Assembly (NCBI RefSeq): GCF_025602895.1
Contig: NW_026516226.1
Span: 372,001 to 436,000, forward strand
DNA: 64,000 nucleotides
DNA from: Polychytrium aggregatum
Lineage: Eukaryota > Chytridiomycota > Chytridiomycetes > Polychytriales
Direction of reading: 5' to 3'
The position numbers and the translations under genes were made by a program. Position 1 is the first letter of the stretch. Each line of letters begins with the position of its first letter. Of this stretch, positions 40,401-60,234 are shown one piece after another. The notes below the pieces were generated by a model, which saw only the letters and a list, made by a program, of their open reading frames with translations, was not told the DNA's origin and ran no database searches.

Positions 40401-43400
40401 CGCCGACGGCAAGAAGCGGACTCGGTCTGACAGGCGGAGCTCAAAGCACGCCTGGAATGAGATCCGCTCCCTCTTTGAGAACCACCCAGAATGCACGGAT
40501 GCGCTCTGGAAGCTGCTCAAGTGAGTAGAGTGCTGCAGCCAAGGGCGCCGACTTGACATTTCATTTCAACGGGCTCTTGACGCAACAGAAGGGTGGAGCG
40601 GCTTGCATTCTGGACTAACACCAAGGCGCCGTGCAGCGATTCAATGGCGGACCATCGGCGTCGGGCATGCCTGCTCCGTCTCTGCGAGATGACCTTCGAT
40701 CCCTCGATGGATACATCCACGGCGGCTGCGCCGCTTCCAAAGCTCAAGATTACGATGCGACCGAGTGCACCGCAAACGTCGCTGGACGAGGTACGGGATC
40801 CATATTTTATCCGGCCACTCGCCTGATCGCTGTGATTCCAAGCACTGCTACTGACACAGGAGCTTCTCTGCTTTTCGATATTCCTGACTGGATCCTGGCG
40901 ACGCCATAGAGCTCGAGCGAGGACGAGGCGCCGACGATCTCGAAGAAAATCAAGCTGAATCACGACTCGTCGGCACCAGGTACGGCTACTCATATTGTCT
41001 CTCAGACTCTGAGTTGGCGCGATGGCGAATGCTCCACTTGCCGTTGGCCGTTTGAGCTCATTTCCCGAAGCACGCAGATGCGTGGATATGCCACACATTG
41101 TCTTTGCTAACTGCATCGCTGCTGATGTAGCCGAAAGGGCCATCGCACAGCCTTCCAAAGCTGTGGCAAAATCTGCAGGCCACAAGCAATCTTCGGTGGC
41201 TACAGTAACCGGCATCTTAGACACCAAGCATGTCCCTCCGATTTCCATAACGATCAAGCCACCTGCACAAAAGCCACACGTTTCAGAGTCGCTTCCGGCC
41301 CCAAAGAAGACATCGGACGCCAAGAAGGAGCGGAGGGAGCCGGCGGCCTCAAGCAAGGACACATTTATGCCGACGGCCGCGACGGCAGCGACGGTATCAC
41401 AGACTGCCCCTGCTGCGGCATCGGTTCTCTCTCCCACTGCACTTTTGCCGACAAAAACCACTCCCGCTATCGATGCAAGCTTCGCTGCCTGTGTGTCCAA
41501 GATGCTGCAGCGTCTACGCAACCATGTGTCGGTGGGTCCCTTCATCCACCCAGTCGACGAGGCACACGCACCGCTGTACTATCAGACTGTGAAGGTCCCC
41601 ATGGATTTAATGACCATCGAAAAGAAGAGCGCCAGCGGCGCCTACGAAAACAGCGTCGAGAGAGTCATCGACGACGTCAACTTGATCTTCTCCAATTGCT
41701 TCCTGTACAACACCGACGACAGCCCAGTTTCAAAGCAAGCCAAGAAGCTGCAGGTGTTCTTCAACGAGGCTGTCAAGACCGAGATGCTCAAGACCACGAC
41801 CGGCAACCCAACCGCCTCGCCTGCTCCCCTCAGCACCGAGCCCCGTGTCGTTGAATCCAAAAAGCCATCCAAGCAGACCGGATTGTCCGCAGACGCGATT
41901 CGCAAGTGCCAAAAGATCCTGGTGACACTCCAGTACCACCCCGAGGCGTACTGGTTCAAGATGCCGGTGAACCCCGAGCTGCAGGGAATACCCGATTACT
42001 TCACGATCATCAAGGAGCCCATGGATCTGTCCACGGTTCGCAAGAAGTTGGTCCGCCTCGAGTACACAAATGCGGATGCATTTGCATACGATGTTCGCCT
42101 GATTTTCTCCAACGCACTGCTCTTCAACGGGCCCCAGTCGGCTGTTTCGATCAGTGCCGAGAACGTACGAGCCACGTTCGATAAACTATGGCGAGAGCGA
42201 CCCGAGAACTTCTTTCCCAAGATCCTTGGGAACCCAGCCGCCGCTGGCCGTGATGGAGAGCGCATCCTTGTCGGCCAACTCACTCTGCACGACTATGAGC
42301 TCGCCCAGCAGATACTCGACAAGCTCGAGGCCCACGCCGGGTCCCTGCCGTTCCTCGATCCTATTGATGCTACGCTCTTTGTGACCTATGCCGAAGTCAT
42401 CAAAAAGCCAGTGGACATATCTACGATCCGCGAGCAGCTCGAGAATGGGGTCTACAAGAGCCTTGGTGCCGTTGAGAACGACATCAAGCTCATATTCGAG
42501 AACTGCATCAAGTTCAACGGCGCTGATTCTGAGCTTGGCAAGCAGGCGGCCACGCTCAAGACCTTCTTCCGAAAGCAGTGGAGGCTGTTGCTATCGCCCA
42601 AGCCCACACCGACTGACTCTGTTTCCAGCGCTAAGCCCGCGACGCCTGGCAAGCCCACTGTCCATAAACCTATTCCTGGAGCCAAGCCGGCGCCTCCTGC
42701 CACCCCTGAGACAAGCACTCCATCCGCGTCGCATTCGTCTGCGACCGCTTCTGCGTCGGTCCCGATTAAGCTGTCGCTGGCGACACCCAAGACGATCAAG
42801 GTGGTGGTGAACAAGAAGGACGAGCAGGTCGAGAGCAGGGCGACATCGGAGCTGCCCAAGAATCACTCATTGCCACCACCGCCCAGCCCGCATCCAGCTG
42901 CAGCCTTGCCCAGTGCATCCAATAGCACATACTCTACAAGCAGCGAGCTCACTCCGGCAGCATACAAGTTGGCTGGGAAGCTTCTCAAGAAGCTCATGTC
43001 ACATCCGTCGGCATCGCTCTTCTTGGAACCCGTAGATCCCATCGCGCTTGGTATTCCGCAGTACCTGGAAGAGATCAAGCGGCCCATGGATCTCGGGACC
43101 ATCGGCAAAGCCCTTGCGCGACATGAATTCAAGACCTATGGCCAGCTGCACGCCGATCTGCAGCTGGTCTTCGACAACTGCTTCCAGTTCAACCGGCCGG
43201 GTAAGCCATCGACTGTTGTCAGTCCGTGCACGAGAGCCTGTTCATCGGCTCGCGCTCTGGTGCTGTGGGCCTGCACTAATGTTCTATGGCTTACTATGAT
43301 TGGGGGTTTGTTTCTGATGGTTGCGAAACCCCGTGGCTCTGGTGGGGGCAATGCCTTACATTCAGGCGACTGGGTCTACTCCCAAGGAAAGAACCTCGAG

Positions 43401-44794
43401 GCGTTCTTCCACGAAGAATGGCGGACGTTTTTCGGAGACCTGTCGAAGGGCGGATCTGTCAAATCCTCGTCTTCGATCAAAGTGGAGCAGTCCAGTGCAG
43501 TTTCTGCGGCCAGCACCACGGGCGACAACGGCACCTCGACGGAGGGTCTGGACAATGTGATGAAGCGCATTCTAGAGATGCTGAAGCAGCACGCAGATGC
43601 CCTCATTTTCCTGATGCCAGTTGATCGCTCGCTGTATCCCGATTACGACGCAATCATCAAAAAGCCCATGGATCTGGAAACTATGGGACGAAAGCTTGCC
43701 CAGCACGCGTATCGAACCTTGGGAGAGTTCGAAGCCGATTTTACTCTAATGATCACAAACTGCTTCAAGTACAACGCGCCAAACAGTCTTGGATACAAGG
43801 CAGGGCTGTCGCTGCAAAAGTACTTCTCCAAGGAATGGAAGAAGGCCGCCTCTGGGCTCGTTGGCGTCAAGCACGAGTCGCCGCAGCCGGCTGGGGGCAT
43901 GCCTTCGCCATCGGTTAAAGCCAAGCGCGCCGATGCTGCTGGTACACCAAAGCCCAAAGCCAAGGGCTTTGGCCAACCCATCCAGTCCGAGTTTTGTGAA
44001 GGTACCATCAAGAAACTGCTGCGGCACGCATTCTCGGTTTCATTTGCACAGCCGGTGCCAAAGGACACGCCTGGGTACTATGCTCTGATCAAAAGGCCCA
44101 TGGATCTCGGGACGCTTCTGGCCAACCTCCGAAGTGGCCAGTATGCGACCCAGACAGACTTCCATGCGGATATGAAGCTCATCTTCCAGAACTGCTACCA
44201 ATACAACATGCCGGTAAGCTGCTGCACCTGCCGTGCCTGAAGCGTCCGCTGCTGTGCTTGCCCACCTGGTCTGACTACAGCCGAACCGAACTGAATGATC
44301 GTTCGTACGATAACACTGGTACGGTGCTTCATTCACAGGGCACGGACATTGTCAAGTGCGCCGAATTCCTGGAGCGGCTCTTTGATGAAACGTGGGCCTC
44401 TCAGCCGACGCACCCAGAAGCTGCGTCGACACCATCCAGAGAAAGCACCCACAAGGAGGTGAGTCCGAGAGCCTCGATGCACGCCGTCAACGTCGGCTAT
44501 CTGTGCTCCAGTCCTCATGTAGCTCTGCTTGTCTGTGTTCAGGCGGATCGGAGCCACACAAAGCCCAAAAAAGAGAAGAGTGAAAAGAAGCACAAGAAGG
44601 AAAAGCATGCACACAGAGACCATCTCGCAGATGGAGGGCTCTCTAGCGGCGGCGAGGACATGCCACAGCACGGCGGAAGCAACGGCAATGACCACAGCAA
44701 CAGTAGCGGCGGTGGCAGTGGCAGCGGTGCCGCATCAGGCAGCCAGCGCGATGGCCCAATGCTCAAGCTGACCCTCAAGTTGTCCAGCAAGTGA
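34430..44794 (+). CDS. TAF2: TFIID subunit TAF2 fused to six tandem bromodomains
   Basis: About 26 exons, ~2,348 aa: 34430-34476 (uncertain), 34643-34691, 34856-34928, 35036-35253 (acceptor uncertain, 34964 possible), 35393-35432, 35575-35642, 35846-36358, 36458-36576, 36662-36775, 36928-37027, 37135-37614, 37912-38210, 38368-38494, 38602-38721, 38854-39000, 39111-39221, 39337-39711, 39844-39911, 39999-40243, 40349-40520, 40589-40790, 40910-40979, 41131-43200, 43366-44213, 44339-44458, 44543-44794. Residues 1-~1250 are TAF2, an M1-aminopeptidase-like scaffold without the zinc site: HQRIVLDFDF, CWMPCVDRIQEKCTW, LAVGPF, ASQWFGHYVS, FSYSFNRKRMMVEV, EWIRLDPD. Exon 23 continues in phase into bromodomains at about 1366-1466, 1503-1615, 1635-1740, 1858-1965, 2005-2103 and 2150-2250. 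Each has a PMDL-type ZA motif and the acetyl-lysine Asn. The tail is Lys-rich and ends LKLTLKLSSK. TFIID recruits Pol II; the array would read acetylated histones. Intron 19 has a GC donor. Confidence 0.88.
37735..37876. repeat. Minisatellite (CAGTATTG / TAGCATTG units) in TAF2 intron 11
   Basis: Roughly seventeen 8-9 bp units of GCAGTATT, GTAGCATT and GTAGAATT type fill half of the 297-nt intron between exons 11 and 12. AT-rich composition contrasts with the flanking exons. Confidence 0.85.
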
Positions 44795-55379: not shown

Positions 55380-58300
55380 CTACTGGCGCCATTTGAACAG
55401 GCCCTTGAGCACTTCGAGCTGGGACCCGCGACTTTCGGGCGAGGATGACCGAGCTGCTGCGCGGTTTGCGAGGTATCGTTGCAGCTCAAGCCGGATCTCT
55501 GGGGTATCGAGATAGATTGGCTGTGAAGATATGGGTGTCAGCAGGGCTCGCAGGAGGCAGTCGACAACAAGAGGCTTACCAAAATGACAACAAGGCGGAA
55601 TTTGACCATCACAAGTGCCCCGGATGGGAGGAATCCGTCGAAATCCCAGCGAAGGAGGGCATGAGGGACTTTGGCGGCGTGGACACCGTGGCGAATCCAC
55701 TGGAGAACCTTATCGACTTCGAACAAATCAAAGGAGGACAGAGGAAATGAAGTCGCAGCGATCTCGCTGGCGCTTGCACTGGAGCGAACAAACTGGTCAC
55801 TGCGACGCACCCAGAGGATTTGGACACCATCGCAATCGTACGATTTGATCGAGCTACCATCGGGCGAAATGGTTACGGAGTACACGGGATTGGTGTGTCC
55901 ATTGAGGGTGCTTTGCAGCCGATACGTCGTCATATTCCACACTCTGACGGTCGTGTCCTCAGAGCCAGAGACAATCCACTTGCTGTCCGGCGAGATGGCC
56001 ACCGAGTAAACCGAATCGGTGTGCCCCTTGAAAGTATGCTTAAGGCGGAATGTACTGGCATCCCAGATCTTGACTGTGTTGTCACCGGAGCCGGAGGCAA
56101 TCCACTTGCCATCGGGCGAGATCACCACGGAATTCACATCATCGGAGTGTCCCTTCAGGGTGTGCTTCACCTGGCCAGTTACGGTGTCCCACACTTTGAT
56201 GGTCTCGTCATCCGAGCCGGAGGCAACCCATAAGCCATCCGGCGAGATCGCGACAACATTCACATCGTCGGTGTGTCCCTCAAGAGACGGGGAAACCTGG
56301 CTTGTGGCTGCATCCCAGATCTTCATGGTCCCGTCAAACGAGCTGGAGACGATCCAGTTACTGTCGGGTGAAACAGCCACAGAGAAGACATATTCTGTAT
56401 GTCCCTCAAGGGTGTGCTTTACTTGACCATTAGCCAAACTCCACACCTTGATGGTGTTGTCCCAAGAGCCAGAGACGATCCACTCGCCATCGGGTGAGAT
56501 CGCTACGGAGTGTACCGAGTCTGAGTGCCCCGCGAGGGTGCGCTTCAGGCGACATGTGATCACATCCCACACCTTGATCGTGCTGTCCAAAGAGCCGGAT
56601 ACGACGAACTTTCCATCGGGTGAGATCGCCACGGAGTACACATGTCTTTTGTGTCCTTCGAGGGTGTGCATCAGTTGGCCAGTGATAATATCCCACACCT
56701 TGATGGTCTTGTCCCATGAACCAGAGGCGGCCCACTTGCCATCAGGTGAGATGGCCACCGAGCACACATAGTCTGTGTGTCCTTCAAGGGTGCTTTTCAC
56801 TTGGCCCGTGGTGGCATCCCAGATCTTGATGGTCTTGTCGCTTGCGCCGGAAGCGATCCACTTGCCATCAGGTGAAATCGCCACACTGGTCACACCTTCT
56901 GCGTGTCCCTTGAGGGTTTTCTTGAGTTGGCCCGTCGTGAAATCCCACACTCTGATGGTGTTTTCATCGGAGCCAGAGGCGATCCACTTGCCATCTGGTG
57001 CGATAGCTGCAACACTAGCACCACTTGTACCCCCATCGATGCTGAGCCTCACTTGGCCGGTGGCAGCATCCCATACGTTGATGGTCTTGTCCCAAGAACC
57101 AGAGGCAATCCACTTGCCATCAGGTGAGATTGCCACAGAATTCACCTGGCTCGAGTGGCATGTGAGTGTCATCTCACACGGATCCCAGGTGGGTGCTGGA
57201 CCAGCCGTGACCAGGAACGGAATCTTGTCCTCGAGTTGGTTGGCATATGTCTTGTAGATCGCCGTCTGCTTCGGTGTGAATGCAAACCCCGAGTTGTACA
57301 CCTGTGGTGCACTCTTGATGATCGGATCGGCAAACTCGCGGATGAATCGATACGTGTCCTTGACCAGTTCCTTCGTGGTGTCGTCGACGATGGTGCTGGG
57401 TGCCTTGACGATCACTCCTCGCAGCACAGCCAGTTGCTCGATGATCGGCTTGACCACATGTGTGAGCGATCCACACTCGAGCCAGAAGAACACATGCGTC
57501 TTGACGAACCGAGTGAGCACCGCTGCCACATCGACCATCTCGACCGACTGCCACACCGGACTCGACTCGGCCACTCCTTCCACACACCACACAAAGTGTG
57601 TGATCCAGTGGGCGACGCTGTATCGCAGCGACGGTGTGATCTTGACTGCGACCCTGTCCTCGAGGTCAGGGATCTTGTCGTGGAACTCGTAGATATCGCA
57701 GATGTTGATCACTGGGTCGTGCGAGAGGATCTCGCCGAGACATCCCTTGGCAAACACCGTGTGGAACGAGGTCGACACATGCCACGGATGGCCAGTCGAT
57801 GCATCGCCGAGGAGATAGTCCGCCACCGACTTGTGGTTGAACTTGACCTCGGTGTTGGTGGACTGGCTGTCTCGGGGATCCAGTCCATTGGCGCCTGGAT
57901 CGAGGACCAGACTGAGGCTCTTGAGACACTCGCGAACGACGCCGATCTCGAGTCCAAACACATCGGCGATGATCTGCGGGGTCAGGATCGACTGGGCTGT
58001 GGCGATTGCCGACACCACCGTGACCAGCTCGGCCAGGTGGCTCGACTGCGAGTGGATCTTGGCGAATGTCTTGTGATACAGCTGCCCGACATCGGCGGCG
58101 CTGTCGTTGATGTCCTTGATCGTGGCGAGTGTCACTGGGCCATCCTTGGCTGCTGCGTCGACGGTGTTGAGGATCAGGTTGATCCACACGAATGTCTTGG
58201 ACTGGTCCAGCAGGATGGCGACTGCCTCGGTGCGGTTCGAGTCACTGAGAATGTCATACACTCGAAGTCGGTGGTGGATGAACACCTCGAGGTCGCGGAT

Positions 58301-60234
58301 GTTCTCCTCGCTCGAGGGCTCGATCGTCTTGGTCGGGACTCCATCGAATGCTGCCTTGATGTCCTCCTCGGGACGAGATGTCAGCAGCAGCTTGAGCCAC
58401 GGACGGGTCTTGTTCAGCTCGACAAAGCGCCAGGCAAGCAGACTGAGCAGCTGGTCGCGCGGAGAACACTCGTCGAGTGCATCCACCAGGATCATCACCG
58501 ATCCCTTGGGTCTGTAGTCGCCAATGGCTTCGAGTGGATCCTCAATCACGGCCTTGAACAGATCGGGGATGCTCATCTTATCGAGGTCGTCCTTGGTGTG
58601 GCCAGCATCGAGGAGCTTGCGGCCGATCGGCGAGTACCATTTGCACAGACCGTATGCGATGGTGTTCAACACAATTCGTGGATCGCTCTTGCGGATGTCG
58701 TTGTATTTGAGGAACAGCGCCGACACCAGCTGGTTGGTGGCTGTGAGGATGTTGGCGATCTGGGCGGCAGCAACAGACTTGCCCACACCAGCAACGGCAT
58801 TGACCCACAGGACAGTGTCGGTAGTGTCTTGGTTGACCCAGTCGGTGGTCTGGTCGAACAGCCACTGGCGGGTGCTCTCGACATACAGATCCTCGAGTGC
58901 CCTTCTGTCGGAAGTGGAGTCGACTGGATCGAGGAGGGATCGCAAGAGCGAATCCTGGTCGGCAGTGAGCTGGATGGGCCCGCCTTGGTGGTATGTTGCT
59001 CCTTGGTCAGTTGCCGTCTTGGTCTTGGTGACAAGCTCTCGTAACCCAGGAACGAGTCTGGAAGCACCATGAGTCAGCGATAGGAAGTGGTATCCACAAG
59101 GAGACATTCACACTTACTGTCTGAGAGCGGCTGTATCGACAGCCTTGAGTGCTTGGAGTTTGAACAGCTCCTTGAATGTCTGCTGGACAGTCATCGGCTG
59201 ATTATCGAAGAGTGGACTGGATTTGTGCGCCGGAGGAAAGTCAGGGAACTTGTTAACTGGCGGAAAATACTCCTTCTTGAGGGTCTCGTCGCCGAACTTG
59301 CGAGTGGACCACATGAGGACAGGCTGAACGATGACGGGGTGGTCGGTGGCGGCGGTGTCCTGCATCAACTTGAGGGCGTGCTGGATCTGTGGATGGACGA
59401 GTGAATGTGAGTTATGGTTTGACGAATGAGACCAGGATCAGCACCTGACCCACCTCGAGGAACTGATTGTCGGGCCAGACATGTGCGTTGAAGGTGCGCT
59501 TCAGACCGTCCTCGGAGAGAATGACGATGATGACGCAGGACTTGTAGAGACCGTTGATGAAACCCTGCTCCCAGTCCATGCCGTTGCAGAGACACTGGAT
59601 GTCGAGGTATGGATGGAGCGCCGTGTGGCCTCGAGGGGTTGTGGCCAGGGTCCCATGCAGCGACGATGCATTGACAGCGTCGCTCTCGACCCGGTAGCTG
59701 TGGAAGGACGGTCGGTCAGCAAGTGGAGGTCAATGTGAATCAGTTGGTGCGGAACAGGCGAATGTGGTGTCGCTCTGATGCTGGATATCAACGCCACCTG
59801 ATGAAGACTTCGTGAGACGTAAAGTTGTTCTGGCAGACCCAGCCATCCAGAGGGTGCGCTGGAACGTAGTCGTTGGCAGTGAGGACTCTGGTGGGCCCCT
59901 GAACAACGACTTCGCTGGGCTGGGACTGGGGTGGCGGCTGTGGGTGTGTCTGCGAGGATGTCGGGATTGCGCTTTGGGTATGGGTCTGCTCGTGCTGCTT
60001 CTGCGCCATCTGGAGCTTCTTGATGGCGCCGGGCTTCATTCCAATCTCCTTCATGTCAGACACCTCAAGGGCGAGCAGCTGAAGCGGCCAACAGTCAGCA
60101 CCGCGATATGCAACAGGACATCTGCTGCAGAGTTCGCTCACCAGGTCGACGCTGTCGTATTCGTTCTCCAGGAAGACATCCTTGTATTTGGCCAGGTCTG
60201 CTTGCCTGAGGAACTCGTCAAAGGGGTCGTCCAT
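55380..60234 (-). CDS. SAM-TIR-NACHT-WD40 receptor-like protein (NLR/STAND architecture)
   Basis: Six exons on the minus strand: 60142-60234, 59798-60078, 59454-59697, 59118-59386, 55580-59057, 55380-55520, giving 1,501 aa; every phase closes. Residues ~5-60 form a SAM domain (FLRQADLAKYKDVFLENEY..LALEVSDMKEIGM..IKKL). A Gln/Pro linker follows. Residues ~119-245 form a TIR domain (HEVFISYRVESD, HPYLDIQCLCNGMDWEQGF, VIIVILSEDGL, WPDNQFLEIQHAL); the Glu of QFLE, residue ~206, aligns with the catalytic Glu of NAD-cleaving TIRs. Then a NACHT-type ATPase: Walker A AVAGVGKS at ~385, Walker B MILVDALDEC at ~490, LLTSRPEED at ~523. Residues ~925-1385 carry ten highly alike WD40 repeats plus a degenerate one, then a ~115-residue C-terminus. 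STAND proteins oligomerise when the repeat sensor is engaged. A TIR effector suggests NAD depletion or signalling. An upstream exon cannot be excluded, because the ATG follows a TTGCAG acceptor-like site. Confidence 0.9.
55791..57178 (-). repeat. Array of 10-11 near-identical WD40 repeat units (126-bp period)
   Basis: Within exon 5 of the TIR-NACHT gene the DNA repeats with a 126-bp (42-codon) period. The core SVAISPDGKWIASGS plus DxTIKVWD recurs ten times with few changes, and the last copy is degenerate. Confidence 0.93.

Follow-up and report, generated by a model that had tools for sequence, protein, structure and literature searches.

SAM, TIR, NACHT and WD40 domains joined in a family of putative NOD-like receptors of Polychytrium aggregatum

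Introduction

Can SAM and TIR domains of the kind found in SARM1 be joined, in a single fungal polypeptide, to the NACHT-type ATPase and WD40 repeats of a NOD-like receptor (NLR)? This question is raised by a gene on the minus strand of a 64,000-nucleotide stretch of Polychytrium aggregatum DNA (contig NW_026516226.1, positions 372,001 to 436,000), referred to here as the window. SARM1 is an animal nicotinamide adenine dinucleotide (NAD) hydrolase with the domain order ARM-SAM-SAM-TIR. A preliminary description of the window, made from the letters alone, proposed that one spliced frame encodes SAM, TIR, NACHT and WD40 domains, and likened the first two to the effector modules of SARM1.

The analyses reported here confirm the observation at the level of sequence. 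The gene (60234-55380) encodes 1501 amino acids in six exons whose spliced translation is free of stops, with the domains in the order SAM, TIR, NACHT-type ATPase and WD40. A P-loop ATPase, C-terminal repeats and an N-terminal effector are thus found on the same polypeptide, as in fungal NLRs of the NACHT-WD40 type, which belong to the STAND class (signal transduction ATPases with numerous domains). The presence of all four domains in one gene was borne out, whereas the description of a single protein was not, as this architecture is common to a large family in the same genome. What is new, judging from these sequences, is that an animal-type SAM-TIR effector is carried by a fungal NLR, one of a large family whose modules can be exchanged.

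Gene model and domain architecture

The gene is interrupted by five GT-AG introns of 63, 100, 67, 60 and 59 nt. Codon 125 (AGC, Ser) is split by the junction of exons 2 and 3 in phase 2 and completes the motif FISYR, which agrees with the preliminary description. In a Pfam scan of the whole protein (results from 25 of 62 families listed) and of its parts, the four domains were found in the expected places (Table 1). SAM_1 was matched above its Pfam cut-off at aa 7-54 in exons 1 and 2 (E 2.4e-9; scan of the N-terminal 296 aa), TIR_2 at aa 122-226 and WD40 (PF00400) in 11 stretches (E 1.3e-133).

The ATPase matched NPHP3_N, a NACHT-type P-loop model, at aa 358-524 (E 2e-26 for the whole protein, 4.4e-27 for the NACHT region), and at E 0.01 no other Pfam family was detected in that region. 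The intact motifs of the preliminary description were recovered as a Walker A GVGKS from aa 386, a Walker B ILVDALDE from aa 485 and LLLTSRP from aa 519. The Pfam NACHT model itself (PF05729) gave no match in this region at E 0.01; the NACHT assignment is therefore based on NPHP3_N and the three motifs. A comparison of the NACHT region with PDB sequences gave no meaningful match.

A family of genes with conserved intron positions

A NACHT search of the 64.7-Mb genome gave 107 hits in 98 places, and a TIR domain lay 5' on the same strand at 92 of these 98 (hits of two TIR searches combined); such counts include haplotypes apparently assembled partly apart, and the haploid gene number is smaller. 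Similarly, the best 150 of 189 TIR hits fell into 86 places, and at 81 of these a NACHT domain follows 145-700 bp downstream in the same orientation.

Residues 1-420 of the window protein were aligned with 64 loci (L009-L072), representing 45 distinct places, using a spliced protein-to-DNA aligner that is blind to intron positions. These places were not sampled at random: they are the best matches of two TIR searches, with four chosen ones added. Grouping at 97.5% DNA identity, required over 90% or more of the shorter stretch, reduces them to 30 groups. All 45 N-terminal models are free of stops, although the aligner penalises stops. An intron after residue 125 in phase 2 was recovered at 45/45 places, as was an intron after residues 206-208 in phase 0 (exactly after 206 in 42). 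The intron after residue 296, in phase 2, was present at 44/45, and an intron within the SAM domain (residues 31-39) at all 35 places having a SAM, exactly after residue 31 in 28. Because the same positions and phases recur in the 45 modelled places, a chance gene model is untenable.

At the conserved sites, intron length varies between 44 and 436 nt. In eight paralogues they are 19-85% identical to those of the window gene, most of them about 50%; in the close copy L012 they are 72-100% identical. Since the positions recur in spite of the divergence of most intron sequences, exons 1-4 are best understood as forming one gene with exon 5, and the joining that the preliminary description assumed holds as far as sequence can test it. 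Exons 1-4 and exon 5 might instead be two adjacent genes, with a NACHT-WD40 gene starting from an ATG inside intron 4, and the open frame of exon 5 in the window does start with an ATG, at 59107. However, an in-frame ATG lies inside intron 4 at just 8 of 44 places; at 11 it is found only further upstream and at 25 there is none before a stop, while the position and phase of intron 4 are kept in 44/45. Given this conservation and the scarcity of in-frame ATGs, the two-gene reading was rejected as extremely improbable.

One TIR-NACHT copy, L035 (C2:354257-357532), has no intron 4 in its model and its second TIR part cannot be aligned; its sequence suggests that it is perhaps a degraded member.

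The TIR domain and its relationship to SARM1

The preliminary description placed a TIR domain in residues 119-245, and the TIR_2 match falls within this interval. All 13 members of a paralogue alignment of the domain (A1) matched TIR_2, with a best E of 3.2e-8. The profile built from A1 gave 22 matches up to E 10 among all PDB sequences, and the first 17 were all SARM1 (best E 1.8e-5). Of the remaining five, three were VCAM-1, which is unrelated (E 0.064-0.066), and the others were an uncharacterised protein (0.73) and TcpB (1.0); no plant TIR was among the 22. Among solved structures, SARM1 thus appears as the sole convincing relative of the profile. A chance TIR assignment was rejected in view of the 13/13 TIR_2 matches and the profile match to SARM1. 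Bacterial and viral relatives were also sought with the A1 profile, which gave 14 pattern matches in genome contigs and 60 for viral contigs, none confirmed in either set. Neither the N-terminal 296 aa nor the NACHT region had a match in NCBIfam or PADLOC at E 0.01.

In the profile alignment, the query segment Asp-Asn-x-x-Leu-Glu lies over Asp-Trp-Val-His-Lys-Glu of SARM1. The aligned SARM1 chain ends at its residue 92 and the 724-aa chain 7knq at 648; from this offset, the SARM1 residue over which Glu206 lies is Glu642. The putative catalytic Glu expected near residue 206 is thus present, and the position holds a Glu in 44/45 paralogous places.

The Glu206 codon is the last of exon 3 and adjoins a splice donor, which alone could favour GAG at this site. 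A second class of TIR genes in the same genome bears on this point. It comprises about 70 places at E 2.4e-24 or better (TIR search, haplotypes included), and in both loci scanned with Pfam (L073, C13:216300-219300; L074, C359:37800-40300) an NB-ARC domain follows the TIR in one intronless open frame. The Glu was present in 22 of 22 TIRs read from the about 70 places, with no intron there. Because this sister family keeps the Glu without an adjoining intron, splice-site constraint alone is insufficient to account for it. An hhalign comparison relates the sister TIR to A1 with a probability of 99.6, and of its 21 PDB hits the first 19 are SARM1 and its nematode relative (best E 6.9e-4).

The SAM domain

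The SAM domain is a feature of the family and not an accident of the window copy, a possibility that was rejected since a family SAM profile finds it in 35/45 modelled places, in each case as both SAM exons 5' of the TIR. The 14 family SAMs of a second alignment (A2) all matched SAM_1, at E 0.1 or better. One of the 45 places, L038 (C24:677042-680323), has tandem SAMs before the TIR at about locus bases 579-1306. A genome-wide search with SAM_1 gave 10 matches at E 0.1, with three at TIR places (on contigs C31, C146 and C157); the domain is split over two exons. The family SAM profile is closer to the SAMs of Caskin and Eph proteins (best E 9.4e-12) than to the SAM of SARM1 (E 0.014-0.022).

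Module exchange and selection

Comparison of the modules between paralogues, with aa 343-420 taken for NACHT, gave discordant identities. Loci L015 and L017 are 44% identical to the window gene in SAM and 100% and 99% in the two TIR parts, and L034 is 41% identical in SAM, 71% and 57% in TIR and 96% in NACHT. For L024, the values are 82% and 75% in TIR and 73% in NACHT. Among 30 group representatives, 11 of 435 pairs combine a NACHT identity of at least 94% with an identity of 60% or less in the first TIR part. Pairwise identities correlate at 0.72 between SAM and TIR (253 pairs) and at 0.43 between TIR and NACHT (435 pairs). Synonymous divergence (dS) follows the same pattern: between the window gene and L029 it is 1.21 in TIR and 0.26 in NACHT, and for L060 it is 1.22 and 0.26. 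Because both identity and synonymous divergence disagree between modules, the NACHT exon has undergone homogenisation or swapping beneath SAM-TIR exons of greater age.

Ratios of nonsynonymous to synonymous divergence (dN/dS), scored for representative pairs whose dS exceeds 0.1 but is no higher than 2, had medians of 0.34 for SAM (181 pairs; 83 saturated pairs set aside), 0.32 for TIR (307; 113 set aside) and 0.26 for NACHT aa 343-420 (423; none set aside), and never exceeded 1 in any scored pair. These values point to purifying constraint on SAM, TIR and NACHT, modules that have nonetheless been exchanged between paralogues. A decaying family of recombining, functionless copies would agree with the stops seen in the matched frame of some TIR matches in the genome (which may be introns read through), with the missing intron 4 of L035 and with the loss of the Glu in L033. 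Such decay is nevertheless very unlikely in view of the low ratios and the 45 stop-free N-terminal models, the aligner's penalty on stops being kept in mind.

The WD40 array

A tandem repeat of period 126 was detected over part of the WD40 array. Variability was assessed over five loci, which contribute 11, 9, 7, 4 and 2 units, 33 in all. By entropy, the top positions of the 42-residue unit are 5, 23, 7, 39 and 25, while positions 6 (Val) and 24 (Asp) are nearly fixed; positions 5, 23, 7 and 25 accordingly hold ranks 1, 2, 3 and 5 of 42. Variable top-face positions are in part a general trait of WD40 domains, and this bears on any likeness to the NWD genes of Podospora. In the available text of Paoletti et al. 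(2007), codons 7, 9, 25 and 27 of the Podospora NWD repeats are described as strongly positively selected and as flanking the conserved codons 8 and 26 (PMC1805685). The variable positions found here correspond to these four codons with a shift of two.

Proposed function and alternatives

The reading that we favour, and hold to be fairly probable, is that the gene encodes an intracellular receptor for nonself or damage of the fungal NLR kind, in which WD40 sensing and a NACHT switch would control a TIR with NADase output and a cell-death response. A ligand would be bound by the variable top face of the WD40 propeller; the NACHT domain would then be released, exchange its nucleotide, bind ATP and oligomerise. 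The oligomer would gather the N-terminal SAM and TIR domains, with the SAM adding its own clustering, and clustering could create TIR active sites where NAD+ is cleaved by Glu206. Death or arrest of the cell might then follow from NAD+ depletion or from a product such as cyclic ADP-ribose. We infer the four functional steps, namely ligand binding, oligomerisation, NAD+ cleavage and cell death, from known families.

Several observations weigh against this reading. In the window sequence alone, the TIR_2 match (E 3.4e-4) reaches 21.5 bits against a cut-off of 28. A pairwise search of the genome with the SARM1 TIR found nothing significant (best E 0.16), so that the link to SARM1 holds at the profile level, and in the PDB search with the A1 profile the SARM1 match stops after the Glu helix, with the second TIR half unmatched. 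By these comparisons, the TIR assignment is weak for the single sequence and firm for the family. Locus L033 (C66:31269-34520) has a Gly at the Glu206 position in an N-terminal frame that is otherwise open, and is possibly a natural, catalytically dead copy. In 10/45 places (L022, L023, L029, L030, L035, L039, L049, L054, L057 and L058), the family profile found no SAM in the fetched flank, and none was recovered when the open frames of eight of the ten were inspected by eye. Nine of the WD40 units of the window gene share 52-75% DNA identity, whereas Podospora repeats are near-identical, and the 33 units of the five loci include no two that differ at 10 or fewer of 126 bases; recent homogenisation of the Podospora kind is thus not evident. 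Finally, the Trp that SARM1 has four positions ahead of its catalytic Glu, and which we take to have a role in activity, is replaced by an Asn that is invariant in A1.

This last substitution would also suit a TIR that, like those of Toll-like receptors, is a non-catalytic scaffold for the recruitment of other TIR or SAM proteins. Assembly is a common role of SAM domains, and the many other TIR genes of the genome offer possible partners. A scaffold is nonetheless unlikely, as the Glu is kept in 44/45 places and in every sister-family TIR read, and the close solved relatives are NAD hydrolases. The conserved Glu would equally serve an enzyme that does not kill by NAD+ depletion but makes a nucleotide messenger for a separate effector, as do plant TIR-NLRs and bacterial Thoeris, and a messenger used in common would fit the presence of two TIR-NLR classes in the genome. 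SARM1, the nearest solved relative, acts through NAD+ loss, and we regard the messenger role as possible but rather doubtful.

Features of the window

The coordinates of the gene are collected in Table 1.

Table 1. Parts of the SAM-TIR-NACHT-WD40 gene, in positions of the window
Feature	Position	Strand	Basis or remark
SAM-TIR-NACHT-WD40 gene	55380..60234	-	six exons, 1501 aa; introns 1-4 also found in paralogues
Exon 1, aa 1-31, first half of SAM	60142..60234	-	spliced model
Intron 1 (inside SAM)	60079-60141	-	spliced model
SAM domain, aa 7-54, spans intron 1	60010..60216	-	Pfam SAM_1, E 2.4e-9
Exon 2: second SAM half, Gln/Pro/Ser-rich linker, TIR start	59798..60078	-	spliced model
TIR and C-terminal extension, aa 122-292, exons 2-4, two internal introns	59129..59808	-	TIR_2; SARM1 profile match covers up to aa 212
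Exon 3, TIR core to Glu206	59454..59697	-	spliced model; paralogue alignment A4
GAG codon, putative catalytic Glu206	59454..59456	-	aligned with SARM1 Glu642; coordinates checked
Exon 4, second TIR part	59118..59386	-	spliced model
Intron 4, between TIR exon and NACHT exon	59058..59117	-	position and phase kept in 44/45 places
Exon 5: NACHT, linker, WD40	55580..59057	-	spliced model
NACHT-type ATPase, NPHP3_N aa 358-524, Walker A, Walker B, TSRP	58373..58873	-	E 2e-26; motif positions
WD40 array, 11 units of exactly 42 aa, aa 929-1390	55775..57160	-	PF00400, 11 stretches; coordinates checked
Exon 6, C-terminal tail and stop	55380..55520	-	spliced model of the window gene alone

Three other open frames of the window, all on the plus strand, were noted. 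A putative mannosyltransferase (PF11051; 61341-62498) adjoins the 5' end of the SAM-TIR gene on the opposite strand. A 1075-aa open frame (41013-44237) contains six bromodomain stretches (PF00439, E 6.4e-133) and is polybromo-like, and at 1183-2850 NAD_binding_7 and a tetrapyrrole methylase share one open frame that resembles a fused sirohaem synthase. Elsewhere in the genome, Chitin_synth_1 and Radial_spoke matches of Pfam are consistent with a zoosporic fungus.

Comparison with known systems

In its available text, a 2014 survey did not find NLRs in chytrids (PMC4986451), and a 2025 survey gives 3993 NLRs from 77 of the 122 proteomes of fungi, among them ten of Chytridiomycota, a phylum with species for which as few as one NLR is counted (PMC12258605). 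Receptors of the NACHT-PPR-WD40 type in Mortierellomycota are described as acquired from, or shared with, an endosymbiont (PMC11291939). The single genome studied here has 92 TIR-preceded NACHT places and 70 TIR places of the second class, haplotypes included.

Rhizoclosmatium globosum, which supplies the fungal TIRs of a recent atlas, is a chytrid. That atlas, a 2026 preprint, states in its accessible part that fungal TIRs are almost zero, that all come from this species and that very few had been reported before; it knows of no prior evidence for TIR-regulated programmed cell death in microeukaryotes and offers a first case, in amoebae (PMC13142454). TIR domains had been reported earlier in NLRs of Chytridiomycota (PMC9815663). 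A choanoflagellate SARM1 with the Glu is also on record (PMC6040629). No description of a SAM-TIR-NACHT protein was found in the open-access texts searched, a scope that leaves aside subscription papers and most preprints.

The window gene is plausibly part of a TIR-NLR repertoire on the scale of plants. That a flagellated fungus runs a plant-scale TIR system of immunity or allorecognition, with two expanded TIR-NLR classes, exchangeable exon modules for SAM, TIR, NACHT and WD40 and a SARM1-like NADase as killing domain, is a wider proposal for which we consider the chances evenly balanced. If it is true, fungi would possess, besides the HET domain of Dikarya, TIR-NAD death receptors of their own. 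Should the TIR prove to be an NADase, fungal NLR logic, the death enzyme of animal SARM1 and the TIR-NLR strategy of plants would meet in one organism, and the use of NAD+ in fungal NLR death would become testable through the change of one residue.

Among known systems, HET-E, HET-D and the HNWD genes of Podospora anserina resemble the window gene in having a NACHT domain followed by WD40 units of 42 aa, and in belonging to a multigene family whose members exchange sequence. From what is accessible of the Podospora study, variability also falls on the same four positions of the propeller face (PMC1805685). The two differ in the effector, which here is SAM plus TIR (at E 1, SAM and TIR_2 are the only matches of the N-terminal 296 aa, and HET is not among them), and in the divergence of the repeats, near-identical in Podospora and 52-75% identical among nine units here. 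Further, Podospora is an ascomycete, whereas the host of the window gene is a zoosporic fungus.

The N-termini of other fungal NLRs include SAM_Ste50p and TIR-like domains (SEFIR-like, in Pezizomycotina) as separate annotations (PMC9815663). These NLRs are like the window gene in carrying TIR-clan or SAM effectors; a SAM and a TIR on one NLR are, in the available text of that survey, undescribed.

With SARM1, the window gene shares a SAM placed before the TIR and the equivalent of Glu642, and its paralogue L038 has tandem SAMs. The likeness to SARM1 put forward in the preliminary description held for the TIR, which is of SARM1 type by profile, and did not extend to the remaining modules: no ARM was matched in aa 1-296 at E 1, and one SAM is present in place of two. 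In addition, NACHT and WD40 domains stand where SARM1 has ARM for control, Asn replaces Trp four residues before the Glu, and the SAM of the window family is closer to those of Caskin and Eph proteins.

Compared with plant TIR-NLRs, the ATPase is of NACHT type and is followed by WD40 repeats, in contrast to NB-ARC and leucine-rich repeats; a SAM is added, and the closest solved TIR is that of SARM1. The strategy is nevertheless alike, in that a TIR effector is carried by a nucleotide-switched receptor present in many copies, and intronless TIR-NB-ARC genes occur in this genome as well.

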